Below, piece by piece: positions 1,008-22,043 of a stretch of 42,052 nucleotides of DNA. The position numbers and the translations under genes are program-made. The notes beneath the pieces were generated by a model. It saw only the letters and a list, made by a program, of their open reading frames with translations, made no database searches and was not told the origin of the DNA. The stretch comes from an uncultured Lachnospiraceae bacterium (GTDB taxonomy: Bacteria > Bacillota > Clostridia > Lachnospirales > Lachnospiraceae), in contig CANQBX010000030.1 in NCBI GenBank assembly GCA_947589095.1, positions 1 to 42,052 on the forward strand, in the 5' to 3' direction. Each line of letters starts with the position of its first letter. The first letter of the stretch is position 1.

Positions 1008-1472
1008 TCATTTTTCCAGAATCTTAACTACGACCTTCCTGACGCCGGACGGTTTCCCGTTCACCGTCCTCGGCTTATGGCCGTCCCAGGGGAAGAAAAT
1101 CACGAAATCACCGCAGCGGCAGGACACCCGGATCCCGGGATTGGGATCGTCGAACAGGATCACATCCTTCTCCGGATCATAAGGACAGGACGAAACCAGC
1201 TCATGAACCGGGGCGTAGCTCATGATCTCCGTCCCGCTGATCATATACTGTATGTCCGTATATCTCTCATGGGCCTCGTAGACCGTCTCCTCCCACGGGA
1301 TCGTGGCGTATGACATGACGCTGGCATAAACCGTCTCGCCGTCGATCTCATACCGGCCGTCTTCCATACCGGCCAGATCGCTGCTTTTAAGCCACTCGAT
1401 CGCCTTCGCGTAGCGATCCCCGATGCCAAGCGTTTTATAGAAATCGATATTTTTTAACTGATCAACGATCAT
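1008..1472 (-). CDS. YhcH/YjgK/YiaL (DUF386) family protein, NanQ-like
   Basis: A 154-aa cupin-like protein of the YhcH/YiaL/EbgC family. Members include NanQ, a sialic acid anomerase, and YiaL of the diketogulonate pathway, so the general role is helping acidic or free sugars convert or mutarotate in the cytosol. Visible hallmarks are HERYTDIQYMISGTE (metal- or ligand-binding centre), DPEKDVILFDD, and the late FFPWDGHKPR with its conserved His. Start at 1472 is preferred over 1493 because AAGGAG lies 8 nt upstream. It is the last gene of the minus-strand sugar locus, 30 nt after the GH2 stop. Together with the NAL-type lyase at the other end of the locus it favours a sialic-acid-like substrate, but the family is broad. 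No strong terminator was seen after it; a weak T-rich stretch lies at about 981-990. Confidence 0.85.
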   Translation of the reverse strand: MIVDQLKNIDFYKTLGIGDRYAKAIEWLKSSDLAGMEDGRYEIDGETVYASVMSYATIPWEETVYEAHERYTDIQYMISGTEIMSYAPVHELVSSCPYDPEKDVILFDDPNPGIRVSCRCGDFVIFFPWDGHKPRTVNGKPSGVRKVVVKILEK

Positions 1473-1502
1473 ACTCTCTCTCCTTCGGCTCAAACGGCGG
1501 CT

Positions 1503-4271
1503 CTACGCCGTCCTGTCGTTTCCGTTCGCCGCAAAATTCGTGTTGGCCGCGGCCTCCTGCACCTTACCGTCCAGCAGCAGCCGGAGACCGGCCGGATCCA
1601 GGGTATCTTCGGGCCGGAACCGATCGCTCTGCACATAGGCAAGCAGATGTCCGAGGAACCAGCGGGCCGCCGGATCCTCCTCGCTGAAATGAAAGCCGCA
1701 GACCAGAAGTCTTCCGTTTATCGCCCGGAACTCAAACAGGATCGCCTGCCGGATCACGTACTTGTGTGTGGAAACCACTTCGATTACAGGATGGAACGGG
1801 ATCCGGTCCGACGCAAAGCAGACCGCCCTTCCGCCCTCCATAAGCCCGCCGAACTGCCATCCGCAGAAGCCCTCGTGCGGCATCTCCTTCATAAGCGGAT
1901 GGTCATGGATCACCGTCGCCAGATTTCCCGAGGTTCTTCCCGCAAGTCCGATCCGGAAGGTGACCGGCAGATCCGCAAAGGGCTTCGTTCCCAGCAAAAC
2001 TACGTCTTTTCCTTCCGTCATAAGACGTTCCAGCTCCTCCCCCGTCATTTCGTGCAGGATCACGGGACCGCGGGTCTTTTTGGCACCGCCGCACGCCGGA
2101 AACAGATACAATTCCCATTCATTTTCCGCAGACACCTCTGCCCCCTCCAGCAAAGCATGCAGCTTCATCGCTCCCGGATGCTTTACCTCCGGAAGTACGC
2201 AGGTGAAATCATACAGCCGCGACACGCTGCCGCAGGGCGCTTTTGCTGTCTCCGTTCTTCTGCATTCGACGGTCTCCCCGTCCAGACTGAGCCGAACCGT
2301 CAGAAGCGCGCCGTTTAACGGCTCTCTTCCGTAATTGGAGACATAAAGCCCGAAGGAAATCCTTTCGCCGGAAGCAAAATTCGTTTTCCGCCCCAGGTCC
2401 GTAAGCAGCACCACATCGCTGTTGTACATCCGCACATTTCTCACGGTCTCTCCCGGTTTGAGCTCGTAGAACTCATTCATCATGCCCACATCATACCCGA
2501 ACGTATGCCAGTGGGTATCGATCGGCCCCAGGAAATCATATCCGGCTATATAACGGCTGCGCCGCACCGTCTCAAAGCAGAACTTCCGCACTCTGCGCTG
2601 CCATTCGCAGGAATTCCGAAAATACAGCGGCGCCTTTTTTAGCATTCCCGTTTCTCGGAGATGGCTTTCGATCGAAGAAAACAGTTCTGTTCTGCCGATG
2701 CGCAGGTTCCTGTACCGGTCCTTCAGGCTCAGATCCGTATAGGTCCCGTCAATGCAGATCTCATGACTGACGCGGGGCCTGCCGTATACGCTGCTCCAGG
2801 CGTCCACAACTGCGGGATCCCCTTCCAGCGAAAAATAGCTGTGCTGCCCGTTGGCATAGCTGGAATACAGGTCGCTGAACCTTCCCAGAGCCTCGATGCG
2901 GCGCGGATGATGGCGGAACGGCTTCTCGCACAGCTCCTTCTCCTGCTCCGGCTCATTCCAGTAGTACTCTACCCCACGCAGAGCGCTCATCGGTGAAAAG
3001 AGCGCGTCCGTCTCCTGATGCACCACATCCGCGCACCGGCTAAGGTAACGGATCCTCGGTTCATCGATCAGAAGCTCATTGCCGCAGCAATAGATGACCA
3101 CAGACGTATGGCGCCGGCAGAACGCCACGATCTCCTTCCACTCTCCGACCGTCGTGTTATTCGGACATTCCACATGCAGCAGCATCCCTTCTTCATCGCA
3201 GACCGCCATATATTCCTCCGCGGGGATATGCGTGTGGAACCGTATAAAATTGAAGCCCAGCCGTTTTACCGTCCGCACGACCCGGCGGTAATATCCGGGA
3301 TCGTGATTCGGATGCACCGTCTCCGGATAATAGCAGTGTTCGCAGATCCCCCGCAGGTAGTAGGGGACATGGTTAAGGCGCAGGCCGGTACCGTCGGCGG
3401 TCAGCCGCCGGATGCCGAAGATCCGCTCGGCCGCGCCGCCCGCGCAGGCGACCGTAAGCTTATAAAGCCTCGGAGATTCCGGGGACCAGTACGAAAGCCC
3501 GGCGGTATCAAAGCGGAAGGATCCGCAGCATTTTCCCTTCTTCAGGACCTTCTCCCCATCGGCGACAGACCACTCGCAGGGCACGGGCTCTGTTAACTCT
3601 ACCCGTACCTCGGCCTCCGAACCGTCCTCCGATACCAGCACCGCCAGGTCGCGCAGCGGACAGACATACTCGCGAAGCTCTACATCGCCGGTTATGCCGC
3701 CCGTACATTCGTTGGCCGCCCGGGAAGTCAGGCCCGAAACCGGCTTTCCGGCGTATCCCGCAAGCCGGTGGTTCGACACCGACAGGATGATCCGGTTTTC
3801 TCCGCTCCTTAAGACACCATCCGGAATCTCCATGTCAAACGGGGCGCTGTATCCTTCGTGCCTTCCCAGGAATACGCGATTCAGCCACACGGAAACCGCG
3901 TTCTGCACTCCCTCAAAATGAATGACCGCCGCGCCGCCTTTTCCCTCCCGCCAAAAGCTCCTGCGATAGAAAAAGTTGCCCTCGATATTCGGCAGCGCCA
4001 TATCGGGCGGATTACAGGCCATCGGGTACCGCTGGATCCCGTATTCCGGATTCGTTTTCAGCTGGTCAAAGAAAGGAAGCGGCCGGAATTTCTCCGTCAT
4101 ATCCTCCCAGTAACCCGGCACCGCGCCGGTCACCGGATTCGACGCTGCCGCCGTCTCCGGGCCTTCGTCCGTGTCCGGAAGCGGAGGCTCGGAAGCGGTA
4201 TACCGCTCCTTACGGTAGTACATTTCCCAGTCTCCGTTTAAAGATAAGGACGTATAGATCATCTTTTTCAT
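1503..4271 (-). CDS. Glycoside hydrolase family 2 protein
   Basis: A 922-aa GH2 enzyme of the beta-galactosidase/glucuronidase/mannosidase clan. Order: sugar-binding jelly roll at about 10-200 (LNGDWEMYYR, WLNRVFLGRHEGYSAPF), Ig-like domain at about 205-290, TIM barrel from about 298. The acid/base motif GNE is at 397-399 (YCCGNELL), and a probable nucleophile Glu504 sits in RVSHEIC. No signal peptide, so it should act in the cytosol on imported oligosaccharides. About 300 residues follow the barrel, including a DVVLLGTKPF stretch resembling the amidotransferase-like tails of some GH2 proteins. Start at 4271 has GGGAG just upstream; the gap to the preceding gene is 30 nt. Substrate cannot be told from sequence; a beta-linked sugar is likely. 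Confidence 0.88.
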   Translation of the reverse strand: MKKMIYTSLSLNGDWEMYYRKERYTASEPPLPDTDEGPETAAASNPVTGAVPGYWEDMTEKFRPLPFFDQLKTNPEYGIQRYPMACNPPDMALPNIEGNFFYRRSFWREGKGGAAVIHFEGVQNAVSVWLNRVFLGRHEGYSAPFDMEIPDGVLRSGENRIILSVSNHRLAGYAGKPVSGLTSRAANECTGGITGDVELREYVCPLRDLAVLVSEDGSEAEVRVELTEPVPCEWSVADGEKVLKKGKCCGSFRFDTAGLSYWSPESPRLYKLTVACAGGAAERIFGIRRLTADGTGLRLNHVPYYLRGICEHCYYPETVHPNHDPGYYRRVVRTVKRLGFNFIRFHTHIPAEEYMAVCDEEGMLLHVECPNNTTVGEWKEIVAFCRRHTSVVIYCCGNELLIDEPRIRYLSRCADVVHQETDALFSPMSALRGVEYYWNEPEQEKELCEKPFRHHPRRIEALGRFSDLYSSYANGQHSYFSLEGDPAVVDAWSSVYGRPRVSHEICIDGTYTDLSLKDRYRNLRIGRTELFSSIESHLRETGMLKKAPLYFRNSCEWQRRVRKFCFETVRRSRYIAGYDFLGPIDTHWHTFGYDVGMMNEFYELKPGETVRNVRMYNSDVVLLTDLGRKTNFASGERISFGLYVSNYGREPLNGALLTVRLSLDGETVECRRTETAKAPCGSVSRLYDFTCVLPEVKHPGAMKLHALLEGAEVSAENEWELYLFPACGGAKKTRGPVILHEMTGEELERLMTEGKDVVLLGTKPFADLPVTFRIGLAGRTSGNLATVIHDHPLMKEMPHEGFCGWQFGGLMEGGRAVCFASDRIPFHPVIEVVSTHKYVIRQAILFEFRAINGRLLVCGFHFSEEDPAARWFLGHLLAYVQSDRFRPEDTLDPAGLRLLLDGKVQEAAANTNFAANGNDRTA

Positions 4272-4301: not shown

Positions 4302-5501
4302 TCAGGAAAGCAAACTGTCTCCGAACTCTCTGTACATCTCCTCCAGATCGATCACGTAAACTCCCCGCCTGCCTTCGTGCGTCGAGTCAAAGCTCAGCAT
4401 ACTGCCGTCCCGGTTCCACCTCGGGTGCAGATCACAGCGAAGATCGGTCACGGAACTGGGCATGGAATAAAACCGTCCCAGCTCCACACAGATATCCGAC
4501 CCGGTACTGAAAATGCGGATCGGCTGCATTCTCTGCGCATCCGGATAACAATCCGTCAGGATCAGCCGTCTGTCCGGCGAATAGCTCATATGATGATCCT
4601 TGTGGAAAAAGCCGTCCGCGACTATCTCTCCTTCATACGTCTTATCCTTCAGGATATATGTATTCGCCCAGCCCCTCGCGCAGTCAAGCTCCTTTCCTCC
4701 GGAATAGAAGATCACCTTTTCCGAGTCGAACCAGGAATAGTGGGACTGCACGCCGTAATCCGACAATAAGAACAGGCCGCCGCCGTCCCGGTCCGCCGTG
4801 ATGACCGCCGTATCATGCGTCTTTCCTTTTTCCGGGAAATTGCGTACAAGCATCAGGAAACGGCTTCCGTCCGTATTGAAGGTAATATGGTTGATCACCA
4901 TTTTCTGATCCTTGTCCCCGAAAAACGCATGGGAAAACTCCCATATCTCCTGCATGGACAGGATCAGCCGGCTCTTTCCGGTCAGCATATCCGTCAGAAA
5001 GACTCCGTCGCGGCTGCTGTGATTATGATGATAGAACGGATCCCCGTACCTGGCGTAGCCATAGCCGGGTCTGAAATCGTAAAGCCTTGCGAAATTAATG
5101 CTGAGCGCATATCTCCCGTCCCGCGAAACGCTGGCTACGGGCCTGTCCAGAAGGCGCTTTCTCCCACTTTGGATATTCAATATGACTCCGCAATAATCTC
5201 CGTCCGCCAGGCTGTTGTAGACGATCTCCTCCTCCGGCGCGGCCGGATTCCACTGCAGCATCGCGCCCTGCTGGAAATTCCATGCTCCCGTCACATCCAG
5301 CTCTTCGAACTTTTCCGTCTCCAGATCCAGAAGTCCGATCTGCGCCGTGTCGAAGCGCTGCTGGAGCCTGTCCGCGAAATCCGCTTTATGCGTCAGATGG
5401 AGCTTCCCGTTAAAGGGCTGCAGATCATAATAACCAAAGAAATATTCTCCGTCGAGAGGCGATATCCTTCTCGCGTAATACGATTTTTTAATTATTTCCA
5501 T
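4302..5501 (-). CDS. Beta-propeller protein, oligosaccharide-lyase-like (PL22-type fold suspected)
   Basis: A 399-aa protein of WD40/TolB-like repeats: YSPDRRLILTDCYPD, FNTDGSRFLMLVRNFP, HPRWNRDGSMLSFDS and a closing GVYVIDLEEMYREFG. No signal peptide. Conserved-looking His residues (DHHMSYSPD, DLHPRWNRDG, YHHNHSSRDG) are reminiscent of the Mn-binding His cluster of oligogalacturonate lyases (PL22), but I cannot confirm this. It may be a cytosolic lyase or epimerase for unsaturated or acidic sugars, or have an uncharacterised role. Start at 5501 is set by AGGAGG 7 nt upstream; the in-frame ATG at 5528 lies inside the end of the preceding gene. It sits between an esterase and a GH2 gene in the operon. 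Confidence 0.6.
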   Translation of the reverse strand: MEIIKKSYYARRISPLDGEYFFGYYDLQPFNGKLHLTHKADFADRLQQRFDTAQIGLLDLETEKFEELDVTGAWNFQQGAMLQWNPAAPEEEIVYNSLADGDYCGVILNIQSGRKRLLDRPVASVSRDGRYALSINFARLYDFRPGYGYARYGDPFYHHNHSSRDGVFLTDMLTGKSRLILSMQEIWEFSHAFFGDKDQKMVINHITFNTDGSRFLMLVRNFPEKGKTHDTAVITADRDGGGLFLLSDYGVQSHYSWFDSEKVIFYSGGKELDCARGWANTYILKDKTYEGEIVADGFFHKDHHMSYSPDRRLILTDCYPDAQRMQPIRIFSTGSDICVELGRFYSMPSSVTDLRCDLHPRWNRDGSMLSFDSTHEGRRGVYVIDLEEMYREFGDSLLS

Positions 5502-5524
5502 ACCGGTTCCTCCTGCGTCTGCAT

Positions 5525-6559
5525 TCATACCTTTTCTTTTTCGCGGGCTTTGATCCGCTTAAGCGCGTCCCACGCGCCCTGCGCGTAAAACCTGTGGCCG
5601 CCTGTTCCCATAAAATGTTCGCATTTCCCGTCCGCGCCGAAATACCCGTACATTTCCTGCGCCTTCGCAAACATCCGGTCCACGCCGTCCGGCGGAAAGA
5701 TCCCGTCCTCCGATCCGTTGATCACGACAAGTCCCCGCGGAGCAATGAGTCCCGCAAGATCGCCCATATCAAAGTCTGTCGCGATGCCCGGAATATAGTT
5801 GCACGCGCAGTGCCAGTTTAAAACGATCGATTCATAGTAATTACATGCGCTGCAGCATGGCATCGCATAGGCGATCCGCTCGTCTATGCAGGCGGAATAG
5901 AACGTAGTGGTTCCTCCGCCCGAATTACCAAGACATACGATGCCTTTCGGATCCACGTCTGTAAAATGCGTTTCGATCACATCAATCAGCCGCATCACGT
6001 CCCATACCCGTTCGCCGATCGCCGTCCGGCCGAGCAGGAGCGGCGGCAGCGCCTGTCCCACTACGCATCCGGGAACCTTGCGTTCCTCATTATGACCGCA
6101 GACACCCATATACCTCTGCTCGATCGCAAACGCCGCATACCCCTCGCCCGCGGCAATGACCGCGTTCATACGGTCAGGGTCTTTAAAGCATCTCTCGTCA
6201 TCCGGAAAAAGCCTTCTTCCGCGGGATATGTGCATACCGGTGGAATGTCCCTGTATACATATCGCAACGGGCGGATTCTTCACATTTCTCGGCAGGATCA
6301 CAAAGCCCGGCACCTCATATCCCGGTTCGCTCTCATAGGTAAAATCGATTTCCAGTCCGTACTGCGTCTCCTCGCGGGCCGTCACGGCAAAGGCATCGTC
6401 CTGCGTCCTCTGCATCCGATCCATGCCAAGCCGGTCCCAAAGCCTCGCGTACGCCCTCTTCTGCCAGATTCTTACGTCCTCTCTGCCGTCATACCTGTAT
6501 TTCGGCACAAGCTTTTCAAAAAGCGATATGTCATAAGCATGTGAATTTCTTGTTCCCAT
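5525..6559 (-). CDS. Alpha/beta-hydrolase, probable carbohydrate esterase
   Basis: A 344-aa protein of the acetyl-xylan-esterase/dienelactone-hydrolase-like (Abhydrolase_7/DLH) group. Catalytic triad candidates: Ser in the nucleophile elbow GNSGGG, Asp in NGSEDGIFPP and His in GTGGHRFY. An oxyanion-region motif ICIQGHSTGMH is also visible. There is no signal peptide, so it likely removes acetyl or other ester groups from imported sugars in the cytosol. In a sialic-acid-type locus an O-acetyl esterase would fit; glucuronoyl or xylan-type esterase is the alternative. Ribosome site GGAG sits 7 nt before the 6559 ATG; the stop lies 23 nt before the propeller start. The region after HSTGMH is Cys-rich (CGHNEERKVPGC, CCSACNYYES), which is unusual for the family. 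Confidence 0.75.
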   Translation of the reverse strand: MGTRNSHAYDISLFEKLVPKYRYDGREDVRIWQKRAYARLWDRLGMDRMQRTQDDAFAVTAREETQYGLEIDFTYESEPGYEVPGFVILPRNVKNPPVAICIQGHSTGMHISRGRRLFPDDERCFKDPDRMNAVIAAGEGYAAFAIEQRYMGVCGHNEERKVPGCVVGQALPPLLLGRTAIGERVWDVMRLIDVIETHFTDVDPKGIVCLGNSGGGTTTFYSACIDERIAYAMPCCSACNYYESIVLNWHCACNYIPGIATDFDMGDLAGLIAPRGLVVINGSEDGIFPPDGVDRMFAKAQEMYGYFGADGKCEHFMGTGGHRFYAQGAWDALKRIKAREKEKV

Positions 6560-6602: not shown

Positions 6603-8522
6603 TTATGCCTGCAGGCATTTGTGCAGCGTATGCATCGCCAGATAATGGTCGAAATACCGTTCAAGTTCGATCTCATAACGGCCGAACCGGCTGCACATCG
6701 CCTTCCATCGCCTCGCGGCCTCTTCATCATTTCCCAGCGCCTTCTCCGCCATCATATCCGCGGCCAGTTCACAGTACTCGGCATGCCGCAGCAAAAGGCG
6801 CATGGAAACCGTCTGCACACGGACCGGACGCGCAGCGTTCGAAAGAGCGAACTTTCTCTCCCGCGCGGCGACGTCCCTGATCTTCCTCAGCTTCTCCGCA
6901 TGGGCCGGGTTATAATACTTTCCCCGGCTCTGCTCCGCAGATCTCTCTCCTTCCATATAAGCAACATCGAAAAGACGGCTGATCTCGTTTAAACACTGCG
7001 CCGCTTCTTCCCAGTGTTCCCCGTATATATGGCTGAAATAGTCCTTTTTGACCGCTTCATAATCACAGCCGCAGTCCAGCAGGGCCTCCGCGTAAATGTA
7101 CATGGCAAAGCCGTTGGGGAAGAAGCCTCTCTGCGTACCGTCTTCCACCATGCCCTCCAGGCCCAGCTCCCTGATAGACAGAATGTCCTCATAAATGCGC
7201 CTGCTGATATCCATCATGCCCGGATCGCGGAACAGATGTGTAAAGAAATGGTACTCGTAGCAAAAACTGCTGCCATGCCACTCCTTCTGCCAGTCCAGCA
7301 GAAAAGCCGCGTTTTCCTCCGGGGAAACAGGCGTCGGCCACGCATTGCGCACATATTCGGGCGCAGGCGCGATCCGCTCCTTTCGGACACTGCTCGTATA
7401 GGAACGCTGGATCGGCGCATAAAGCATCGCGAACCGTTCCGGATTTTTGATCCGCTCCCGAACAGGCGCATACAGCGTGTCCAGATAAACGATAAATACG
7501 ATGCGGGTATTCAGTTTCCGCCTTGTAAGCTCCTCATCCAGCTGATTCATGATCATCACATAGTAATCGGACGGACGGAGTTTCCGGCATTCCTCACACT
7601 CGCAGTGATTCCGCGAACCGTCAGCCAGCCATACATGAATGTACGCGGCATTCGGATGATTGGCGGCATAGTCCGCGACCGCTCCCGCCATGATCGCCCT
7701 GGTAGCGGGATTGGACATGCACAGATTCGTATTCAGGGCGACGCCTTTATACAGTTTGCGCTCTCCGTCGATCATCGCAAGGTGCGGTTTGATCTCCTCC
7801 GTTATCTCCGCATCGTGAGGACGCCACTGGTCGGAAGAGTCCAGACCGAACGGTTCCGCCGTCCACCCGTGTCCCATATCATGGAACTGCAGCCCTCTCC
7901 TGGCTATCTCCGTCTCACACTGACGCTTCCATTGCTTCACGGTCTGCCAGCCAACCGGCTCCGGCGGACGGTTGTCCTCATTGTAAACATGACGGTAATA
8001 CAGATCATAATAATAAAACGGCGTGTCGAACTCCAGCATGTAGATGTTCATCTCCAGCTTGGCATAAAAATCAATGGTATCCAACATACATTGCTGGCTC
8101 TCCGAACCTTCGTTGCACTGTCCGCGGAAACGGCTGCTGGGAAGATGGTGATACTTCACGGGAACAATCTCTTTCACCGGGATATATTCCCCATCCACGC
8201 CGGGATAAAGGAAGCGGCACCCGTTCTCCTTCAGATAACGGTACACAGCGAAAAGCACGCTTCTGGGATTGCCGCCGGCCAGGATACCCCCGCGGACATC
8301 CGTATCAATGTGTACCACATCGTCCAGGAACGGATCCCGGACGTCCGGGAAGGAAAGGCGGAAATCCTCCGCCAGTCCCAGACGAAAACCCTCGGACGCA
8401 CCAGGTTCATAGAGAATCGGAATGTCGCCGCATTCCGGCATCATCATACGCAGGTATTTTTTTAATTCCTCAGCGGCAAAGTCTATGACATGATCCGCAC
8501 GAAGCTTTTTAATCTGGAACAT
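6603..8522 (-). CDS. DUF4838 family protein (GH67-type N-domain)
   Basis: A 639-aa protein. The N-terminal 130 residues look like the alpha-glucuronidase (GH67) N-terminal domain (AAEELKKYLRMMMPECGDIP, GNPRSVLFAVYRYL, GCRFLYPGVDGEYIP). A TIM-barrel-like DUF4838 core follows, with YIHVWLADGSRNHCECEECR and DYYVMIMNQLDEEL. The paired Cys (C-x-C-x2-C) is characteristic of DUF4838. No signal peptide. DUF4838 proteins recur in polysaccharide-utilisation loci and are suspected glycosidases without settled activity. Ribosome site AAGGAGG at 9 nt. It follows the gene for the large secreted protein and precedes the esterase, so it probably acts on the same imported sugar. Confidence 0.78.
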   Translation of the reverse strand: MFQIKKLRADHVIDFAAEELKKYLRMMMPECGDIPILYEPGASEGFRLGLAEDFRLSFPDVRDPFLDDVVHIDTDVRGGILAGGNPRSVLFAVYRYLKENGCRFLYPGVDGEYIPVKEIVPVKYHHLPSSRFRGQCNEGSESQQCMLDTIDFYAKLEMNIYMLEFDTPFYYYDLYYRHVYNEDNRPPEPVGWQTVKQWKRQCETEIARRGLQFHDMGHGWTAEPFGLDSSDQWRPHDAEITEEIKPHLAMIDGERKLYKGVALNTNLCMSNPATRAIMAGAVADYAANHPNAAYIHVWLADGSRNHCECEECRKLRPSDYYVMIMNQLDEELTRRKLNTRIVFIVYLDTLYAPVRERIKNPERFAMLYAPIQRSYTSSVRKERIAPAPEYVRNAWPTPVSPEENAAFLLDWQKEWHGSSFCYEYHFFTHLFRDPGMMDISRRIYEDILSIRELGLEGMVEDGTQRGFFPNGFAMYIYAEALLDCGCDYEAVKKDYFSHIYGEHWEEAAQCLNEISRLFDVAYMEGERSAEQSRGKYYNPAHAEKLRKIRDVAARERKFALSNAARPVRVQTVSMRLLLRHAEYCELAADMMAEKALGNDEEAARRWKAMCSRFGRYEIELERYFDHYLAMHTLHKCLQA

Positions 8523-13649: not shown

Positions 13650-14534
13650 TCACGTCTTCCGGCAGGAATCCAGCTTATCCGCAAGGAACCTTGCCCTCGC
13701 CGCCATAAAGCGAGTCGCTTCCCCCATGAATTCCAATTCGAAGCCCTCTAAAAAGCAGTTCGCTTCCAGCGTGAATTCTCCGTCATAACCGATCTCCGCC
13801 AGCGTCCTCACGACCTCATCATAATCCACGCGGCAGATTCCCGGCAGAGTATGATTATCGTGCAGGAAATCCACATCGTGTACATGCAGCGCATGGAGCC
13901 TCCCAGGTCCAAGGGCCCGGATCATCTCCGGTATATTCTCTCCGACCAGCTCGCAGTGGCCGATATCCAGGCATGCGATAACCCATTCCGAATCCATCAT
14001 ATCCACATACTCGCAGAATTCCCGCGGCGACGCGCAGGTATCATGTATGATATACTTTCTTTTCGGGTCGACACGCCACATGTTCTCGATCGCGATCCTG
14101 ACGCGGTTTTTCTCGGCATGCGGAAGCAGCGCGCTGTAAAACTCGTAATTGATCCTCTTCAGTTTCTCTTCATTTCCTTTGTATGTCATAAAATGCAGCG
14201 GGTGCACCACGATCTGCTTTACCCCAAGAATGGAAGCAATCTCAATCGACTTTGCGACCGCGTCGAAGACCTCCCGGTCGTCGGGAGTAGTAGGCTCCGG
14301 CGCATGCGCCTGATTAAAAGAAATTCCAAGCCGGTCCGTATATGCGCGCAGCTCCTCCGCCAATTTGTAAAAGTCAAAATCATGTCTCCCGGATTCCCGC
14401 TCAAGCGTACTGTGCGTAGAGCTAAAAGAGAAATCCAGGCAGTCATATCCCGCGTCCGCCAGCATACGGATCGCTTCTTTTTCATCAAAATGTTCAAACA
14501 GATAGGAAGTTGATGTTGATATTTTCGTTCTCAT
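13650..14534 (-). CDS. Sugar phosphate isomerase/epimerase (AP-endonuclease-2-like TIM barrel)
   Basis: A 294-aa TIM-barrel protein of the xylose-isomerase-like/IolE-IolI family. Metal-site signatures: Glu in RIAIENMWR, Asp and His in ACLDIGHCEL, His-Asp in HALHVHDVDF, and the final Glu in GEFTLEANCF. It likely isomerises or epimerises a ketose or its derivative in the cytosol. Start at 14534 (MRTKIS) chosen because AAAGGA lies 9 nt upstream; the longer in-frame extension to 14621 covers intercistronic sequence and lacks a site. It lies downstream of the solute-binding protein gene across a 197-nt spacer that carries stem-loops, and 64 nt upstream of the secreted protein gene. The exact sugar is unknown. 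Confidence 0.85.
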   Translation of the reverse strand: MRTKISTSTSYLFEHFDEKEAIRMLADAGYDCLDFSFSSTHSTLERESGRHDFDFYKLAEELRAYTDRLGISFNQAHAPEPTTPDDREVFDAVAKSIEIASILGVKQIVVHPLHFMTYKGNEEKLKRINYEFYSALLPHAEKNRVRIAIENMWRVDPKRKYIIHDTCASPREFCEYVDMMDSEWVIACLDIGHCELVGENIPEMIRALGPGRLHALHVHDVDFLHDNHTLPGICRVDYDEVVRTLAEIGYDGEFTLEANCFLEGFELEFMGEATRFMAARARFLADKLDSCRKT

Positions 14535-14599
14535 TTTTCGATTCCTTTCGTTTCCCGCTGCAGATTTCTGTCCGCCCGCCCCGTCATTTCCTATAAAGG

Positions 14600-14629
14600 G
14601 AGCCGCCGTTTCCGTAACCACGGCGGCTC
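14600..14629 (-). other. Intercistronic stem-loop after the solute-binding protein gene
   Basis: A perfect 10-bp inverted repeat (GAGCCGCCGT / ACGGCGGCTC) with a 10-nt loop. No T-tract follows on the minus strand, so it looks like an mRNA-stabilising or processing hairpin rather than a terminator. Such hairpins after a binding-protein gene commonly raise its level over downstream genes. Confidence 0.55.
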
Positions 14630-14731: not shown

Positions 14732-16474
14732 TTACTTGTTCAGGCCTGTCAGATAGACGTCATATGCCTGCTGATGCAGATCGACGAATTCCTCCAGCCC
14801 CATCTTGTTCAGGGTCTCCAGATAGCCGTCCCACTCCGCATCGATATCGGATACGCCTGTAAGCCAGTTCGCGCGGTACATATCGGTCGTGCTGTCAATA
14901 TCCGTATACAGCTCGTTGATCCGGGTGTAGATATCGTCGGCGATATACGGACGCGGCCAGCATTCCTTCGCCATCGCATCCTTGTAGAGATCATAGTGTT
15001 CGTCATACGACTCTTTGTCCGCATCCAGAATAAAGCGAGAACTGTAATCATCCGCCGTAAACGCATACGGATAGTTATCCGCTATATTATGCGGCATCTT
15101 CGAGTCGAGGATTGCCTGATCCTCTTCCTTATTGGCGTCCGCTTCCAATACGACCATCTTGCCCTCGTCGTTGTATTCCCAGCCAAGGCCTTCTCCGCCG
15201 TATTCCGCGCTCATGGCGACCTCCAGGTCATAGAACTGATCGATCCACGCCGCCAGAATCTCGGGATGCTCGCAGGAACGTGTGATGGAGAACATACCCT
15301 TCGCTCCCAGGGAACCCGGATGCTCCCACCATTTCGCCTGATAGCCGTCCGCCGAAATCGGAGGAACCACCTCATACTGATCACGGAACGTCACGGAAGA
15401 CGGGAGATATTTATTGGTCGCTGCTCCGACCAGCGGTGCGCTCTCATTCTGCGTCGTCGCCGTCCAGGTTTCCGAATTGCCCGTAAAGATCTCGGACCAG
15501 ATCAGTCCTTCCTTGTACCAGGATGACAGAGTCCGGATCGCGTCATGATAAGCTTCGCTTGCTCCTACGTAATATACCTTTCCGTTATTTACATCCATAT
15601 AACGATCATTGGGCAGATCCTTCGTGGCAAGTCCCCACATGCAGAGCATTCCTTCCGGATAATTCAGCGATCCGCTCGTGGAAAGCATCAGTGGGATTTC
15701 ATCATTGGGATTGCCGTTTCCGTTCACATCGTTATCGCGGAACTTGGTCAGTACTCGATGCAGATCCTCGACCGTCGTGGGGATCTCCTCATCTACCGCT
15801 TCCAGCCAGTCCGTATTGATCCAGAGCGGCGTCTCCAGGTAGTTGCCTTTCTGGACGTCGTACTTGGGCAGGGCATATACATGTCCGTCAGCAGTGGTGA
15901 TGACAGCCCTCGTCTGCGGGGATTCCGCGAATACGCGGCTGTTAAGGTTCGGCATGAGCTCCGGATTGTCAATATATTCGTCCAGCGGAATGAGAAGTCC
16001 GTTGCTCCCCATCGAACTGGTGCCGCTCTCGCCTATGACAGTCGTCATACCCATGATGGCGTCCCCTTCCTCTCCGGCCAGGAACAGGGAATTCAGGTTA
16101 TTCATCGCCGTAGCGGACGGAATCGCAAGCCAGTTGATCTTCACGTTCGTCTTCTCCTCCAGCTCCTTCAGGATCGGGATCTTCTCGGCGTTCGCATTCG
16201 GATCGCCGTCATTCAATACCATTATGGTAAAGGTCACCGGCTCTGCCAGAGGGAAAGTAACTCCACCCGACGCTTCTTCCGCCGGAGCTTCCGTCTCCTC
16301 AGCTGCGGGAGCCTGGGTCGTCTCTTCCTTGGCGGCCTGGGTCGTTTCTTCCTTAGCGGCCTGCGTCGTCTCCGCCGGCGCGGTATCCGACGAACCGCTC
16401 TTCCCGCATGCGGCGAGCATCAGCGCAACTACCAGCAACAAAGCAAATAACCTTCTGCAGCTTCTCTTTTTCAT
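14732..16474 (-). CDS. Extracellular solute-binding lipoprotein (family 1) of a sugar ABC transporter
   Basis: 580 aa. Lipoprotein signal peptide with lipobox LAAC and Cys23 as the lipidation site. A Thr/Ala/Glu-rich tether with repeats of TTQAAKEE (about 37-70, from 27-nt tandem DNA repeats) lifts the domain off the membrane. The binding domain has PVTFTIMVLNDGDPN and the calcium-like loop DNDVNGNGNPNDEIPL found in LipO/LplA-type proteins of Firmicutes. It should capture oligosaccharides outside the cell and deliver them to the two permeases encoded just upstream. No ATPase gene is in the locus, so a shared MsmX-type ATPase is expected. Ribosome site GGAG 8 nt before the start. Confidence 0.92.
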   Translation of the reverse strand: MKKRSCRRLFALLLVVALMLAACGKSGSSDTAPAETTQAAKEETTQAAKEETTQAPAAEETEAPAEEASGGVTFPLAEPVTFTIMVLNDGDPNANAEKIPILKELEEKTNVKINWLAIPSATAMNNLNSLFLAGEEGDAIMGMTTVIGESGTSSMGSNGLLIPLDEYIDNPELMPNLNSRVFAESPQTRAVITTADGHVYALPKYDVQKGNYLETPLWINTDWLEAVDEEIPTTVEDLHRVLTKFRDNDVNGNGNPNDEIPLMLSTSGSLNYPEGMLCMWGLATKDLPNDRYMDVNNGKVYYVGASEAYHDAIRTLSSWYKEGLIWSEIFTGNSETWTATTQNESAPLVGAATNKYLPSSVTFRDQYEVVPPISADGYQAKWWEHPGSLGAKGMFSITRSCEHPEILAAWIDQFYDLEVAMSAEYGGEGLGWEYNDEGKMVVLEADANKEEDQAILDSKMPHNIADNYPYAFTADDYSSRFILDADKESYDEHYDLYKDAMAKECWPRPYIADDIYTRINELYTDIDSTTDMYRANWLTGVSDIDAEWDGYLETLNKMGLEEFVDLHQQAYDVYLTGLNK

Positions 16475-16530: not shown

Positions 16531-17412
16531 CTAACCTTTTACGGCACCTACCATAACGCCTTTTACAAAATACCGCTGAACGAAGGGATACGCGATCACC
16601 AGCGGGATACAGGCCACTATCACGACCGCATATTTCTGTAAGTTTGTCTCCAGAGTAATTCTGGTAAGCTCCTCGATACTGATATCCTCCCTCAGCATAC
16701 TGCTGGTCCTCGACAGGATATTATTGATGACCTGCTGCAGAGTGAACAGCTTGGGATCGTACAGATACAGCTGCGCGCCCAGATATGCGTTCCAGTGCGT
16801 TGTAATGGAAAACAGTGCAATGATCGCAATGATCGGAGTCGCCAGCGGCAGCGCGATCATCGCGAAAAACCGCGTAAAGCTTGCCCCGTCTACCCTCGCG
16901 GCGTCCAGCAGCGATTCCGGTATACTGCTCTCGAAATAATTCCGCAGCAGGATCAGGTTATATACGTTCACACAGCCGGGAATAATGAACGCCAACGGAG
17001 AATTGAGCATCCCCATCGCATTCACGATCAGAAACTTCGGTATCATCCCGCCGCTGAAGTACATGGTAATGACAAACATCGTATTCAGGAATTTTCTGCC
17101 CGGCAGCGTCCTCTGCGCCATCGCAAATCCGCAGGGAACCATTACCGCCAGATCCAGCAGCACGGCACCCGATGTGTACAGGATGGAGTTCTTATAGCCC
17201 ATCCAGATCTGGGGCATCTCGAACAGCTTCCGGTAGGCCGCAAGATTCAGGCCCTTCGGCCAGAACAGTACCCGGCCGGCCGCTATTTCCATAGGCGAGC
17301 TTACCGACGCGATCAAAACATACCAGATCGGATAAATGCTTACGATCGCAACCAGCACCAGTAAAACATCGATCACCATATTCACGGCACGCTCTCCGCT
17401 TATTCTTTTCAT
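16531..17412 (-). CDS. Carbohydrate ABC transporter permease (MalG/LplC type)
   Basis: 293 aa with about six membrane segments, starting at VIDVLLVLVAIVSIYPIWYV. The ABC-permease EAA loop reads ESLLDAARVDGASFTRFF with IALPLATPIIA after it, the contact point for the ATPase. C-terminus FVQRYFVKGVMVGAVKG is typical of the LplC subgroup. It forms the inner-membrane channel together with the product of the gene 12 nt upstream. Ribosome site GGGGGC 5-8 nt before the start, nearly identical to that of its partner. Confidence 0.93.
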   Translation of the reverse strand: MKRISGERAVNMVIDVLLVLVAIVSIYPIWYVLIASVSSPMEIAAGRVLFWPKGLNLAAYRKLFEMPQIWMGYKNSILYTSGAVLLDLAVMVPCGFAMAQRTLPGRKFLNTMFVITMYFSGGMIPKFLIVNAMGMLNSPLAFIIPGCVNVYNLILLRNYFESSIPESLLDAARVDGASFTRFFAMIALPLATPIIAIIALFSITTHWNAYLGAQLYLYDPKLFTLQQVINNILSRTSSMLREDISIEELTRITLETNLQKYAVVIVACIPLVIAYPFVQRYFVKGVMVGAVKG

Positions 17413-17424: not shown

Positions 17425-18381
17425 TTAGAATAATGACACATCCGTCAGCCGCTTCGCGATCCGGTTCGTCAGAACGACCAGCCCCAGATTGATTATATTC
17501 TGGAAAATACCGACCGCAGAAGCAAATCCGTACTGCGAGCCGCCGATACCCGTTTTATAGACATATGTGTCGATGATCTCCGAACGCGCGATGTTCAGAT
17601 CCGTCTGCAAAAGAAGCATTTTATCCGCCCCGATCACAAACATCTGTCCCATATTCAGGATCAGCAGGATCACGATCGTCGGCAGGATGCAAGGAATCTG
17701 AATATGCCAGATACATTTAAGCTTTCCGGCTCCGTCGATCCTGGCCGCATCCTCCAGCTCCTCGCTCACCGCAGACAGCGCTCCGAGATAGATGATCGCG
17801 TCATACCCGGCGTTCTGCCATATCCCCGACAGTACGAACATCGGATAGACCCATTTCGGATCCCCGAAGAAACTGATACTGTCTTTTCCGAATTCCCGCA
17901 GCAGAATATTGATCAGACCGCTCTGACCGTCGCATAACAGCCGGACAATGTTGACGACTATAACTACGGACAGAAGGTGCGGCAGATAAGAGAAATTCTG
18001 CGCCGTCTTTTTGAGCTTTGTATTCACACAGTTATGCAGCAGCAGCGCCAGGAAAAGCGGCACGGGCCAGCATACAATATGCATCAGCAGGCTGATCAGC
18101 ACGGTGTTCCTGACCGTAACGCCAAACCACATGCTGGAGAAAAAGCGGTTGAAATGACGCAGCCCCACAAATTTATTCTGTAAAATCGGCACTCCGATCT
18201 TCACGTCCTGAAACGCCATAACGAGACCATACATCGGTCCATAAGAGAAAATCAGCAGAACTATGATCGCCGGCAACATGAACAGATACAGTTCCCGGTG
18301 CCTCCAGATTGCTTTTGTGATATTTTTTCTCGCATTCGCTTTCTCCTGTGCGGTCCGTTTTCCTCTTTTCTGTTTTCTCAT
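17425..18381 (-). CDS. Carbohydrate ABC transporter permease (MalF/LplB type)
   Basis: 318 aa with a basic N-terminus (RKQKRGKRTAQEK) and about six membrane segments (LFMLPAIIVLLIFSYGPMYG onward). EAA loop EELEDAARIDGAGKLKCIWH followed by IQIPCILPTIVILL. C-terminal IINLGLVVLTNRIAKRL matches LplB-type permeases. Pairs with the downstream LplC-type permease and the lipoprotein to import the locus sugar. The gene is 30 nt after the oxidoreductase stop, consistent with one operon. Confidence 0.93.
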   Translation of the reverse strand: MRKQKRGKRTAQEKANARKNITKAIWRHRELYLFMLPAIIVLLIFSYGPMYGLVMAFQDVKIGVPILQNKFVGLRHFNRFFSSMWFGVTVRNTVLISLLMHIVCWPVPLFLALLLHNCVNTKLKKTAQNFSYLPHLLSVVIVVNIVRLLCDGQSGLINILLREFGKDSISFFGDPKWVYPMFVLSGIWQNAGYDAIIYLGALSAVSEELEDAARIDGAGKLKCIWHIQIPCILPTIVILLILNMGQMFVIGADKMLLLQTDLNIARSEIIDTYVYKTGIGGSQYGFASAVGIFQNIINLGLVVLTNRIAKRLTDVSLF

Positions 18382-18411: not shown

Positions 18412-19815
18412 CTAAGCATCCACCTCTGCGCCGTTCTCCCGGAGAATCGTCCTCAGAGTCTGCACGTCCACTTCCCTAAACGGCCTTCCCGTCCGCAGCT
18501 TCACAGCCGCGGCCACGCCGGCCGCCTCTCCGATCGCAAAGCAGGTAGACATAATCCGCGCCGGACCAAGCGCCTGCCCTTCCGCCTCGATACACCTTCC
18601 GGCCACGATCAGGTTATCGGCTCCCTTTGGCAGCATCGCGCTGTACGGGATGGGCGTGATCCCTCTTTTTACGGATAATCCTGCATCCGCGAACTCCTGT
18701 CCCTGCCCTCGGCTCAGATCAAAATGCCGGCCGCCCAGAGCGATGGTATCCGCAAAATCCGTTCCTTCCAGAAGATCCTGCTCCGTCAGCGCCCGCTCGG
18801 AAACGATCCTTCGCGTTTCTCTCACTCCCGGATAGCAGGCCGTAAGACGCAGCCGGCAGTTCCCGGCTCCGGGCATATAGCCCTTAAACAGCACTTCCGT
18901 CAGCAGCTTTGCCCTACGGCGGCCGCGGATCGTAACCTTTGTCATATCCTCCCCGCTGGTACCGTCGTAACCATCGAATCCGGTACCGCCATTCACCATG
19001 AACACTCCCTCCTGCATCATCGGGAAAATGATCATGGCTCCCGGCAGATCCAGATCCGGATGCTCTTCGGCTGCACGAGCGCATATTGGCCGGAACCAGG
19101 GGTCTCCGCCTTCATTCAGATAGCGTTCAAGCGGCGCCGGATCTATGTTCTCAATATGCGCCACCAGATTGACGGACGTCATCTCCCCGGTCACTTTATC
19201 GCCTTTGTAGGTTTCGAATCCGGCGAAATCCGTCACATCCGCGTCCCCGGTGCAGTCGATCACCGCCCCGGCCGGAACGAACTGAACGCCGCTTTTGTCG
19301 GCGAAACGAATGCCTGTCACCCTGTTTCCTTCCCGCTCTGCGCCGATCACTCTGGCGTAATAGCGGATCCCGGCGCCGGCTTCCAGAAGCATCTCCTCCA
19401 GCACCCGTTTGCCGGTCTCCAGGTCGAAGGTGAATTCGTCATGGCAGCCCAGTCTGTCCAGACCGGGCCATCGGTCCGTCTGCGGCAGCCGGCATGGGCC
19501 GGAGCCGCCTCCTTCTTCCCGGATACGCCTCATCGCCTCCTCGAAGATTCCTCCCACCGCTTTCCGCGGATGAGGCAGATCCTTATAGGCGAGTCCCCGT
19601 TCCATCATCCAGGGAAACGGTATGGAGCCGTTAGTATATCCCAGCCAGAAAGGCAGCGCGCCCGCGGTGGAGGTTCCGCCCACGCAGCCGTTAACCTCGA
19701 TCAGTAACGTACGCATTCCCTGTCTGGCCGCCGCGACGGCCGCCCCGATCCCAGCCGGGCCGCCTCCCGCTACGACCACATCCACATACGGCAGTATTTT
19801 CTCCTGCTGTCCCAT
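18412..19815 (-). CDS. FAD-dependent oxidoreductase (FAD_oxidored type)
   Basis: 467 aa. N-terminal Rossmann motif VVVAGGGPAGIGAAVAAARQ with LLIEVNGCVGGTST, and a second dinucleotide segment GAVIDCTGDADVTDFAGFE. C-terminal ADNLIVAGRCIEAEGQALG and STCFAIGEAAGVAAA complete the FAD fold of the PF12831-like family found in many glycan loci. Cytosolic; probably oxidises or dehydrates a sugar or sugar acid with FAD. The substrate is unknown. Start at 19815 (MGQQEK) has GGAAG upstream; a TTG at 19836 is the only longer option. It begins 26 nt after the lyase gene, so the two are probably co-translated and metabolically linked. Confidence 0.85.
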   Translation of the reverse strand: MGQQEKILPYVDVVVAGGGPAGIGAAVAAARQGMRTLLIEVNGCVGGTSTAGALPFWLGYTNGSIPFPWMMERGLAYKDLPHPRKAVGGIFEEAMRRIREEGGGSGPCRLPQTDRWPGLDRLGCHDEFTFDLETGKRVLEEMLLEAGAGIRYYARVIGAEREGNRVTGIRFADKSGVQFVPAGAVIDCTGDADVTDFAGFETYKGDKVTGEMTSVNLVAHIENIDPAPLERYLNEGGDPWFRPICARAAEEHPDLDLPGAMIIFPMMQEGVFMVNGGTGFDGYDGTSGEDMTKVTIRGRRRAKLLTEVLFKGYMPGAGNCRLRLTACYPGVRETRRIVSERALTEQDLLEGTDFADTIALGGRHFDLSRGQGQEFADAGLSVKRGITPIPYSAMLPKGADNLIVAGRCIEAEGQALGPARIMSTCFAIGEAAGVAAAVKLRTGRPFREVDVQTLRTILRENGAEVDA

Positions 19816-19841
19816 TTTCTCTTCCTTTCCGTCCAAAGCGC

Positions 19842-20708
19842 CTAATCCAGCGCGTCTGTCTCATCCAGGAACCGTTTTTCCTCTTCCGTAACCGGCTTAA
19901 ACGGCATACGGCAGTCTCCCGCCTGTATCCCTTTGCGCTTCAGCAGATACTTCTCCGCGCTGATATCCCGGATGCTTGTCAGCCTGTCGATCACCCTGCA
20001 GGCTTCATGCTGGATCGACTCCGCCTCTTCCAGATTCCCCGACTCAAACGCCGCCCACAGCCGTTTATACTTCTTCAGCATGATATTGTATGTACTGCCA
20101 ATGGCCCCGTCTATGCCCAGGGGAAGCGCGGAAAGCAGCGCCTCGTCCCTGCCGAACAGGAGTCGGATATCCGGGTAGCGCACCCGTATCTTCTCCAGTT
20201 CATAGAGATTCATATCCGTATACTTCAGGCCGCATACCCTGCAGTATTTCATGATCATTCCCAGATTATCGGCCGTAATCGTCACGCCGGAAAACTTCGG
20301 ATAATTGTAGACAACCATCGGCAGGCTGACCGCGTCGGCAATCGCCGCATAGTACCTGACGATCTCCTCAAATTTAAAATCATAATAGAACGGAGGAACG
20401 CTGGAAACCGCGTCCGCGCCTGCCTTTTCTGCCTCCCTCGCAAGCTTCGCCGCCTGCGCTGCGCCGATCTTTCCCACATGGGCGACCACCGGCACCCTTC
20501 CATTCACCTCTTCGGTAACGGCAGCTACGATCCGTATCCTCTCCTCATCCGTAAGAAGAAAACACTCTCCCGTGCTGCCAGTCACATAGAAGCCGTCCGC
20601 TCCTTCCTCAAGAAGCACATTGACCAGCTTTCGCAATTCGGGGAAATTCACTTCACCATTCCCGTCAAACGGCGTTACCAACGCTGGAATCAATCCTCCT
20701 AGTTTCAT
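19842..20708 (-). CDS. nanA: N-acetylneuraminate lyase-type aldolase (DapA/NanA superfamily)
   Basis: A 288-aa Schiff-base aldolase. Key residues: GSTGE at 44-48, Tyr134 in YNYPKFSGV, Schiff-base Lys162 in GLKYTD, and the NAL-specific pair Asp188-Glu189 in FGRDEA followed by GAIGSTYNIM at 202-210. YN-x-P-x2-SGV, the DE pair and IGSTYN distinguish N-acetylneuraminate lyase from dihydrodipicolinate synthase. Predicted reaction: sialic acid (or a similar 2-keto-3-deoxy acid) to pyruvate plus an N-acetylmannosamine-like sugar. Ribosome site GGAAGGAGAG just before the ATG. It is the first metabolic gene after the regulator, and a YhcH/NanQ-like gene closes the same locus. nanE and nanK are not in the window, so the fate of the aldehyde product is open. 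Confidence 0.85.
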   Translation of the reverse strand: MKLGGLIPALVTPFDGNGEVNFPELRKLVNVLLEEGADGFYVTGSTGECFLLTDEERIRIVAAVTEEVNGRVPVVAHVGKIGAAQAAKLAREAEKAGADAVSSVPPFYYDFKFEEIVRYYAAIADAVSLPMVVYNYPKFSGVTITADNLGMIMKYCRVCGLKYTDMNLYELEKIRVRYPDIRLLFGRDEALLSALPLGIDGAIGSTYNIMLKKYKRLWAAFESGNLEEAESIQHEACRVIDRLTSIRDISAEKYLLKRKGIQAGDCRMPFKPVTEEEKRFLDETDALD

Positions 20709-20760: not shown

Positions 20761-20990
20761 TGTCCTCCGGACACATGCTCCCTCCGGGGGTTGCGCACGG
20801 TTCGCTTCGGTGTTTGCCCTCCCTCCGGTCGGGCGCGAACCGGCGCGGTATAATCTCTGTCGAGATTATACCATGTCCTCCGGACATGCTCCCTCCGGGG
20901 GATGCGCACGGTTCGGTCCGGTGTTTCGTCCTCACTTCGTTCGGACACCGAACCGGCGCGGTATAATCTCTGTTGAAATGATTATACCAT
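20761..20990. repeat. Tandem 113-bp repeat with operator-like palindromes
   Basis: Two similar copies (20761-20873 and 20874-about 20990), each starting TGTCCTCCGGACA and running through CTCCCTCCGGGGG and GCGCACGGTTCG to GAACCGGCGCGGTATAATCTC. Each copy ends in a palindrome. In copy 1 it is GGTATAATCTC-TGTC-GAGATTATACC (847-872, perfect 11-bp arms); in copy 2 the arms are GGTATAATC/GATTATACC with an 11-nt spacer. Copy 2 reaches the stop codon of the regulator gene. The block fills the whole space between regulator and lyase genes, so it may hold the operator and the -10 (TATAAT) of the lyase operon, or be a mobile palindromic repeat that happened to land there. Confidence 0.7.
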
Positions 20991-22043
20991 CTGCATCTGC
21001 ACCCTTCTCCCGGTGCTGCTCTCCCTGATGAATATCTCCGGGGCCAGCAGGGACAGTGCCGCCGTGCTTTCGCCTTCCATTTCCTTCATCAGGAGCTTAA
21101 CCGCCTCCTTTCCCATTGTGCTGGACCGGGAGGATACCGATGAGAGCGGAACCAGCAGCTTATTGCAGATATCGCTGTTGTTGTTCCCTACCACCTTTAC
21201 ATCCTCTCCGATCCGCAGACCCATTTCCTGAAGTACCAGATACAGGAATGCCGCCGTGTTATCATCAAAGCAGACCACCCCGTCCGGATAATCCGGCTTC
21301 TCAAACATACTGCGGAGCCGTCTGCGCAGCTCTGACTCGCCAAAGTTCCCCAGAAGCATCCCGCCCTGCTCTACCTGCCCGGCATATTCCAGCATCGCGG
21401 TTTCATAGCCGTAATACCGCTCCAGCGCGACGGAATATTTCTTATCGGAAATGTAAGACAGCCGCGTGCAGCCGCATTCAATCAAATGCCGTGTGGCCAT
21501 GTGGGCGCCGTAGCAGTTATTGACTCCCACAAAAGGCACGTCCAGGCCGTCTATGCTGCGGGAACAGAGAACAAAGGGTATCTTCTTCTCCCGCAGATTC
21601 TGGAATGTCTCAAAGCTCTGCTCCGAATCCAATGTCGGAATGATGATGCAACCGTCCGCCTGCATCTCGATCGCTCGCTGCACGTTGGCCCTCTGCCTGT
21701 CAGGCAGCCGGTCGCTGGAAAACAGTACGATGTTGATATCATTGGCAGACGCATACTGCTCGATCCCGAAGATAAATCTTGGATAAATATCGTCCATGAC
21801 CGACGGAAGGATCACGGCGACATTGAGCATCTTCCGCGAGTGGTTCTCCGCGACAAAGGTACCGCTGCCTTTTACGGAATACAAGCTGCCTTCCTGCTCC
21901 AGCTCCATGATTGCCTTGTCGATCGTATTGCGTGCGACTTCAAACTTTTTGCACAGATAATTGCGGGACGGTATCTTGCTTCCTGGTTCTTTTTTCTGAA
22001 TCATTTCGCGGATTCCGTCTTTTGCTTCCAGATATCTAAGCAC
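20982..22043 (-). CDS. GntR/LacI-type transcriptional regulator (AraR-like architecture)
   Basis: 353 aa. N-terminal winged helix of GntR type at about 1-70 (KIPSRNYLCKKFEVARNTID, LEQEGSLYSVKGSGTFVAE). A LacI/periplasmic-binding-protein effector domain follows from about 72 (LNVAVILPSVMDDIYPRFIFG, DGVVCFDDNTAAFLYLVLQE, VVGNNNSD). Likely binds a sugar from the pathway and controls the downstream locus, and possibly itself. Start is GTG at 22043, with GGAGG 7 nt before it. Co-oriented with and directly upstream of the lyase operon. The palindromes at 847-872 and about 960-990 (+20000) are the obvious operator candidates. Confidence 0.9.
   Translation of the reverse strand: MLRYLEAKDGIREMIQKKEPGSKIPSRNYLCKKFEVARNTIDKAIMELEQEGSLYSVKGSGTFVAENHSRKMLNVAVILPSVMDDIYPRFIFGIEQYASANDINIVLFSSDRLPDRQRANVQRAIEMQADGCIIIPTLDSEQSFETFQNLREKKIPFVLCSRSIDGLDVPFVGVNNCYGAHMATRHLIECGCTRLSYISDKKYSVALERYYGYETAMLEYAGQVEQGGMLLGNFGESELRRRLRSMFEKPDYPDGVVCFDDNTAAFLYLVLQEMGLRIGEDVKVVGNNNSDICNKLLVPLSSVSSRSSTMGKEAVKLLMKEMEGESTAALSLLAPEIFIRESSTGRRVQMQMV

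Follow-up and report, generated by a model that had tools for sequence, protein, structure and literature searches.

The window analysed here, 42,052 nucleotides from an uncultured Lachnospiraceae bacterium that make up the whole of contig C30 in a 4.1-Mb genome of 192 contigs, carries a 21-kb sugar locus in which a regulator gene (REG) stands beside a gene for an N-acetylneuraminate lyase (NAL)-type aldolase. This regulator–aldolase pair is a conserved core behind which the accompanying gene cassettes have been exchanged; the core with its exchanged cassettes, together with the contents of the window cassette, is the new part, while the kind of aldolase, its anomerase partner and the link to glycoside hydrolase family 33 (GH33) were already known. 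We propose, with a probability of about one half, that the genes of the locus form a single catabolic unit, inducible by its substrate, for a C8 or C9 ulosonic acid other than N-acetylneuraminic acid (Neu5Ac), namely either the 3-deoxy-D-manno-octulosonic acid (Kdo) of rhamnogalacturonan II (RG-II) or 3-deoxy-D-glycero-D-galacto-nonulosonic acid (KDN). The substrate is putative and we make no firm choice between Kdo and KDN, both of which are more likely than Neu5Ac. A literature search of titles and abstract openings returned no description of such a locus.

We delimited the core by its aldolase. Relatives with at least 56% identity form a set of 11 loci in 10 genomes (the window, L002–L009, L045 and L083); three loci with 25–43% identity (L010–L012) were left out. 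The clade is rare, being found at that identity level in 2 of 299 sampled genomes of the family, and in a sample of the order (E ≤ 1e-80) it was present in 1 of 392 genomes, the window genome itself. Within the genus, the aldolase occurs in 5 of 26 genomes, and in as many the regulator–aldolase core follows a topB-type gene, the window genome being counted in both cases. Except in L005, every core locus, the window included, has a relative of the regulator (46–93% identity) next to the aldolase (10 of 11). As in the window, galM and topB precede the pair in L002, L003, L009 and L004, with an FAH-family gene inserted between topB and the regulator in L004. When the window was compared by blastn with the same-genus loci L002, L003 and L009, homology spanned topB, galM, the regulator and the aldolase and stopped at window position 19858, 16 bp before the end of the aldolase open reading frame (ORF). 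Past the aldolase, only permease matches remained (one of 63 bp in L002 and one of 106 bp in L003). All ten loci that have both regulator and aldolase continue with ABC sugar transporter genes of a single class, and among the loci compared the transporter proteins have diverged, with permeases 34–45% and binding proteins 22–34% identical. The YhcH gene at the far end is common to the window and L004 (72.5% identity in DNA, 69% in protein). The congener G114, which lacks the core aldolase at E ≤ 1e-80, has a different ABC cassette after topB, and the site after topB is therefore variable in general.

The sister cassettes differ in content. L006 and L008 contain a GH33-type BNR_2 protein, a transporter, a ketohexokinase-type kinase and an SIS isomerase (Pfam was run on L006 only; the kinase and SIS proteins of L008 were recognised by eye), and L045, L083 and L007 (the contig ends there) contain the regulator, the aldolase, a BNR_2 protein and a transporter. 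In L002 we found a BNR_2 protein, a transporter, a GH5-like protein and a member of the nucleoside-hydrolase family. L003 and L009 carry a transporter, a BNR_2 protein, GH27, GH51, D-lyxose isomerase and GH2, the contents of L003 being read by Pfam and those of L009 by matching ORF lengths, with its isomerase found directly. L004 has the FAH-family protein, a transporter, two RHGA/pectate-lyase-like proteins and YhcH. L005 has a damaged aldolase copy beside a 2-keto-3-deoxy-6-phosphogluconate (KDPG)-type aldolase, PfkB and a DUF2961 protein, which we take to be GH172. This second core aldolase copy of G308 (L055 / L005 10001-10825) has an internal TAG stop and is apparently decaying. YhcH was seen solely in the window and L004 among the core loci; its lack in L002, L003, L007 and L009 is unsure because the available sequence stops in or just after the cassette.

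A BNR_2-type protein is encoded in 8 of the 11 core loci and is absent at the window, L004 and L005 (the L006 and L003 proteins were called by Pfam, the other six by alignment). All eight aligned proteins retain seven positions, the Arg of a YRIP motif, an Asp, a Glu, two further Arg, a Tyr and a Glu, which are presumably the GH33 catalytic residues, and the PDB relatives of the L006 protein, the one of the eight that was searched, are sialidases. The GH33-type gene holds the slot right after the aldolase in six sisters (L002, L006, L007, L008, L045 and L083); in the window, that slot holds an FAD-dependent oxidoreductase. Activities described for GH33 include Kdo hydrolase and KDNase (PMC9120202). 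A BNR_2 protein beside the L010 aldolase has no RIP motif and was dropped as evidence.

The aldolase itself (19842..20708, minus strand) belongs on the NanA side of its superfamily. It passes the NCBIfam model NF003164 (295.1 bits, cut-off 281) and falls below the nanA model TIGR00683 (252 bits, cut-off 382); NALs are its best solved relatives in a PDB search, and it is 41% identical to Escherichia coli NanA. In a tree of 46 rows it shares a group of 22 rows with E. coli NanA (support 99/98), DapA and YagE falling outside. Clustering with dihydrodipicolinate synthases (DHDPS) was checked by this tree and the sialate-side placement stood; filing the enzyme as DHDPS or YagE-type was ruled out as far as tree position goes. 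The nearest named relatives are Lachnospiraceae metagenome-assembled genomes (MAGs) named 'Lapin', which we read as rabbit gut. Aligned to E. coli NanA, the window aldolase retains Tyr137, the Schiff-base Lys165, Thr167, Asp191-Glu192 and GSTYN. The original prediction had taken such residues as specific to sialate aldolases. They are indeed kept, but they are not sialate-specific: the Tyr, Lys, Thr and Asp-Glu all recur in control aldolases from G015 and G104 (tree rows L047 and L049), which score above the NF003164 cut-off too (tested as L015 and L016). These controls adjoin aldehyde dehydrogenase and FGGY-kinase or enolase-superfamily genes (L047 10848-14867, L049 10963-15922). Because aldolases in other contexts share both the residues and the NF003164 match, the residue signature alone is no proof of a nine-carbon substrate. 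NanA-side aldolases beside dehydrogenase, kinase or enolase genes suggest another sugar-acid pathway, which makes automatic naming as 'NAL' unsafe. The window genome also has a nanE-linked NAL (L044), which does not pass NF003164 (213.5 bits) and falls in a different clade of the tree.

The earlier description of thirteen co-oriented genes running from a GntR/LacI-type regulator to a YhcH protein was borne out by ORF and Pfam checks, and Pfam agrees with the families named for the YhcH, GH2, DUF4838, esterase, ABC transporter, FAD oxidoreductase, aldolase and regulator genes. The 13 ORFs (161–1660 aa, 1008-22043) all lie on the minus strand, with YhcH at one end and the regulator, which joins a GntR helix-turn-helix (PF00392) to a LacI-type sugar-binding domain (PF13377), at the other (20982..22043). 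The FAD oxidoreductase (18412..19836; PF12831, FAD_oxidored, 314 bits) begins 5 bp past the aldolase ORF and is followed by two ABC sugar permeases of family PF00528, PermB (17425..18381) and PermC (16531..17412), a lipoprotein solute-binding protein (14732..16474; PF13416/PF01547) with a lipobox-like MLAACG read by eye, and a xylose-isomerase-like TIM barrel of the sugar isomerase/epimerase superfamily (13650..14621; PF01261, start perhaps at the Met of residue 30). Downstream of the aldolase, neighbouring ORFs overlap by up to 4 bp or are up to 110 bp apart. The sole large gap in the locus, 273 bp between regulator and aldolase, contains two tandem repeats of about 113 bp (20773..20982, no strand); the corresponding gap in sister loci is only 15–55 bp. 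The tandem copies carry the palindrome TATAATCTC...GAGATTATA. Among the loci compared, a 22-bp piece of the repeats was found solely in loci of the window genome, and no palindrome upstream of the aldolase was common to the window and its sisters, in which most of the 280 bases taken are regulator coding sequence. Promoter and terminator scans were close to shuffled expectation (25 versus 18.8 ± 3.6 and 19 versus 15.0 ± 4.0, respectively) and did not place the transcript ends. The contig begins 1 kb beyond YhcH; the locus could extend past that end and its left limit is uncertain.

The large secreted protein (8603..13585, 1660 aa) has a signal peptide by eye, ConA-like domains, a divergent Asp-box propeller at about 9911-11100, a Big_3 domain and choline-binding-type repeats at its C-terminus. 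Its Asp boxes had been counted as a sign of sialic acid. They are real, two of them matching the strict pattern, but they do not lie in a sialidase-type active site: the propeller slice scores 26.4 bits against a BNR_2 cut-off of 31.4, there is no RIP motif anywhere in the protein, and 2 of the 7 GH33-type residues (the Glu and the third Arg) are retained. Sialidase activity of this protein was ruled out on these grounds. A plasmid collection contained no match for it or for the DUF4838 protein.

Four further proteins, in which no signal peptide is visible by eye, could act on the glycan inside the cell. The propeller at 4302..5528 had been called lyase-like; it matches no Pfam family even at E 5, and an identity of the oligogalacturonate lyase type was rejected as it matched no Pfam lyase family. 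It is instead classed, by alignment, as a relative of WbgV (27.6% identity, E 4e-27 to 5e-27, the alignment spanning 89% of the propeller protein), whose family is uronate C5-epimerase by annotation; several plasmid records of WbgV are annotated as UDP-N-acetylgalactosaminuronic acid (UDP-GalNAcA) C5-epimerase and others as glycosyl transferase. At E ≤ 1e-30, this propeller type was found only in the window genome and G114 among the 299 family genomes. The G114 copy (L078 4534-5802) stands among genes for a glycosyltransferase, a UDP-sugar dehydrogenase and an aminotransferase, in a cluster for polysaccharide synthesis. The serine esterase (5525..6559), an alpha/beta hydrolase with a GNSGG motif, matches the glucuronyl esterase family PF22244 and is similar to 6goc, the catalytic module of the RG-II methylesterase BT1017 (E=1.1e-5), a similarity that would give the window cassette a uronic-acid/RG-II flavour. 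For the GH2-type glycosidase (1503..4271; GH2 N-domain by Pfam), the best solved relative is a GH2 without a stated role, and the next are of beta-glucuronidase, galactosidase and galacturonidase types. The DUF4838 protein (6603..8522; PF16126) has relatives at E ≤ 1e-30 in 11 of the 299 family genomes; the only PDB match of its profile is a GH67 alpha-glucuronidase, which is not significant (E=0.21) and covers the N-terminal part only. DUF4838 genes directly adjoin sulfatase genes in the congener G114 (L079 9900-13160) and on contig C1 of the window genome (L081 8233-11673), which hints at sulfated glycans as substrates of some DUF4838 proteins.

A conserved system of aldolase, FAD oxidoreductase and DUF4838, whose co-occurrence had originally been put forward for checking, did not survive: the three occur together in no other region examined, and the system was ruled out with DUF4838 in 11/299 genomes and FAD relatives at E ≤ 1e-100 in 2/299, the window genome and G051 (at most five candidates per genome were scored). 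In G051, a relative with 75–77% identity stands next to another NAL, of a different subtype (42% identical to the window aldolase); the adjacency is likely and not proved, as the FAD gene is broken over two contig ends and a stretch of about 120 residues is missing in between. A relative with 29.5% identity is found in Bacteroides, at a locus that also has GH130, GH2, GH88 and GH43. The protein at the far end (1008..1493, likely start ATG at 1472) is an anomerase-type member of YhcH/YjgK/YiaL (DUF386; PF04074, 152 bits). It had been described as NanQ-like, and it does belong to the YhcH family (TIGR00022) but misses the cut-off of the NanQ-specific model NF040884 (106.7 versus 160 bits). YhcH speeds NanA on Neu5Ac and KDN and not on 2-keto-3-deoxyxylonate, as described in PMC8141875. 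Of the three supports for a sialate-type reading, the aldolase thus stood, and the Asp boxes and the NanQ-like protein proved weaker than stated.

From these parts we propose the following route. The wall-attached secreted protein, to judge from its signal peptide, ConA-like domains, Asp boxes and choline-binding repeats, would bind or trim an acidic polysaccharide outside the cell, and the ABC transporter, by its family, would import the oligosaccharide. Inside, the GH2 enzyme, the DUF4838 protein, the methylesterase-like hydrolase and the WbgV-type propeller may dismantle it and release a polyol-tailed 2-keto-3-deoxy sugar acid. By analogy with NanQ and NanA, YhcH would open the ring of this acid and the aldolase would cleave it to pyruvate and an aldose. 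Since the regulator keeps its place beside the aldolase when the transporter and glycosidases are exchanged, the acid is most likely what the regulator senses; the co-conservation is observed and the ligand is inferred. The FAD oxidoreductase and the TIM barrel would have the sugar acid or its ketoside as substrate, at a step that we have not placed. A more specific version, which we hold to be speculative and rather improbable, is that a redox route replaces the GH33-type ketosidase here: the FAD oxidoreductase would oxidise a capped keto-deoxy sugar and the TIM barrel release it by elimination, before YhcH and the aldolase act.

This route to Kdo or KDN draws on the regulator standing next to the aldolase in 10/11 core loci and on the ketosidase link given by GH33-type proteins in 8/11. 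Together with the NanA-side aldolase and the three of ten genomes in which NanE was not found, the latter proportion upholds the earlier view of a sialic acid or related keto-deoxy acid served by something other than the ordinary Neu5Ac gene set. Mannose is the expected product from KDN, and D-arabinose that from Kdo. The D-lyxose isomerase would suit the former, and the kinase with the SIS isomerase would suit either. In plants, Kdo and 3-deoxy-D-lyxo-heptulosaric acid (Dha) occur in RG-II only, according to PMC12168206. Several points weigh against the proposal. No GH33-type protein is encoded on the window contig, the rest of the window genome not having been searched for one. Kdo is so far without a downstream route, D-arabinose isomerase not having been searched for. 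The link between D-lyxose isomerase and the aldolase falls short of significance (3/5 aldolase-bearing versus 4/21 other genomes of the genus, Fisher p=0.10), and the presence of the isomerase in the cassette set against NanE gives p=0.067. The isomerase occurs in 4 of the 10 core-aldolase genomes and within the cassette only in G311 and G318; that of G320 belongs to another gene cluster, past a transposase. The D-lyxose isomerase near L004 was dropped as evidence; it is part of a dehydrogenase/HMGL/HAD/TPP cluster on the far side of a transposase. The incompleteness of MAGs could explain some of the NanE absences, NanE being present in the other seven genomes. Finally, NF003164 and the key residues are common to aldolases in dehydrogenase/kinase contexts, and a shorter keto-deoxy acid is possible for that reason.

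The last point leads to an alternative that we consider unlikely, in which the aldolase acts on a C6–C7 keto-deoxy acid from pectin-type uronic acids, like 2-keto-3-deoxygluconate (KDG) or Dha, its sialate look being inherited sequence. Aldolases with the same residues do adjoin aldehyde dehydrogenase, FGGY kinase or enolase-superfamily genes, the damaged G308 copy (L005) adjoins a KDPG-type aldolase and a PfkB kinase, L004 has its two RHGA/pectate-lyase-like proteins and FAH-family protein, and the window cassette has uronate-type enzymes. However, the GH33-type proteins in 8 of the 11 core loci point to the ketoside of a 2-keto-3-deoxy acid, and no kduI-, kduD- or kdgK-type family is among the domain matches of the window locus. 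Moreover, YhcH was of no help to NanA on 2-keto-3-deoxyxylonate, which is largely open-chain, in the work reported in PMC8141875.

A second system for Neu5Ac (or Neu5Gc or anhydro-Neu5Ac), whose aldolase would make N-acetylmannosamine (ManNAc) for enzymes encoded elsewhere, seems to us quite improbable. The absence of nanE and nanK noted earlier is true of the window locus, as searched with Pfam, but not of the genome, in which contig C77 carries nanE and a ROK kinase beside another NAL; these two could finish the pathway. NanE is present in 7 of the 10 core-aldolase genomes, the window genome among them, and the NanA-side position of the aldolase, the YhcH protein and the GH33-type proteins beside aldolase relatives would all suit Neu5Ac. 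On the other hand, NanE is never at the core locus and was not found in G311, G318 and G320 (MAGs 88, 83 and 94% complete), the window genome already has its NAL–nanE–ROK cluster with a NAL of another clade, and the D-lyxose isomerase inside the L003 and L009 cassettes argues for an acid other than Neu5Ac. The GH2, methylesterase-like, WbgV-type and DUF4838 proteins fit no mucin-type set known to us. It is very improbable that the thirteen genes are no functional unit but a resident regulator–aldolase pair in front of an unrelated polysaccharide cassette: the homology boundary at the aldolase end, the differing downstream genes of L002, L003 and L009 and the other ABC cassette of G114 would allow it, but ABC sugar transporter genes of the same class in all ten loci, the 5-bp spacing of the FAD gene, the YhcH shared with L004 and the recurrence of FAD–NAL adjacency in G051, though across its contig gap, speak for one unit.

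Compared with known systems, the proposed unit for a non-Neu5Ac ulosonic acid resembles E. coli nanATEK-nanQ in its NanA-type aldolase and in its YhcH-family protein, which aligns over its length; unlike it, the window locus combines uronate-type glycan enzymes with an ABC importer and a regulator that is a GntR-LacI hybrid, and has no nanE, nanK or nanT. Among gut clostridia, Ruminococcus gnavus and others have nan clusters that likewise contain sialic-acid-type aldolases and ABC import; the likeness is by description only, and the nanE-linked NAL of the window genome is of another clade than the window aldolase. With the Bacteroides RG-II system the window shares the BT1017-like esterase, the one enzyme matched (other RG-II enzymes were not searched for), and differs in its ABC-transporter layout. 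WbgV, annotated as a UDP-GalNAcA C5-epimerase of O-antigen synthesis, is homologous over most of the window propeller, which unlike WbgV stands in a catabolic-looking operon and would act on an oligosaccharide or free uronate rather than a nucleotide sugar. A Kdn-specific aldolase whose specificity is traced to Asp50 has been reported from Sphingobacterium (PMC10017367); likened by description, this Kdn aldolase/KDNase system is an earlier instance of an enzyme of the NanA family being dedicated to Kdn.

The core loci amount to a natural experiment in which one sensor and one aldolase were kept while several sets of transporters and glycosidases were changed around them. A single assay of the regulator or the aldolase could name the shared sugar acid, and with it an acidic unit common to several gut glycans. 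Should this be Kdo, the locus would be a Gram-positive route for a part of RG-II that, according to PMC12168206, is found nowhere else in plants. Should it be KDN, which Bacteroides thetaiotaomicron can make according to PMC12413058, the locus would be a route for scavenging that sugar.

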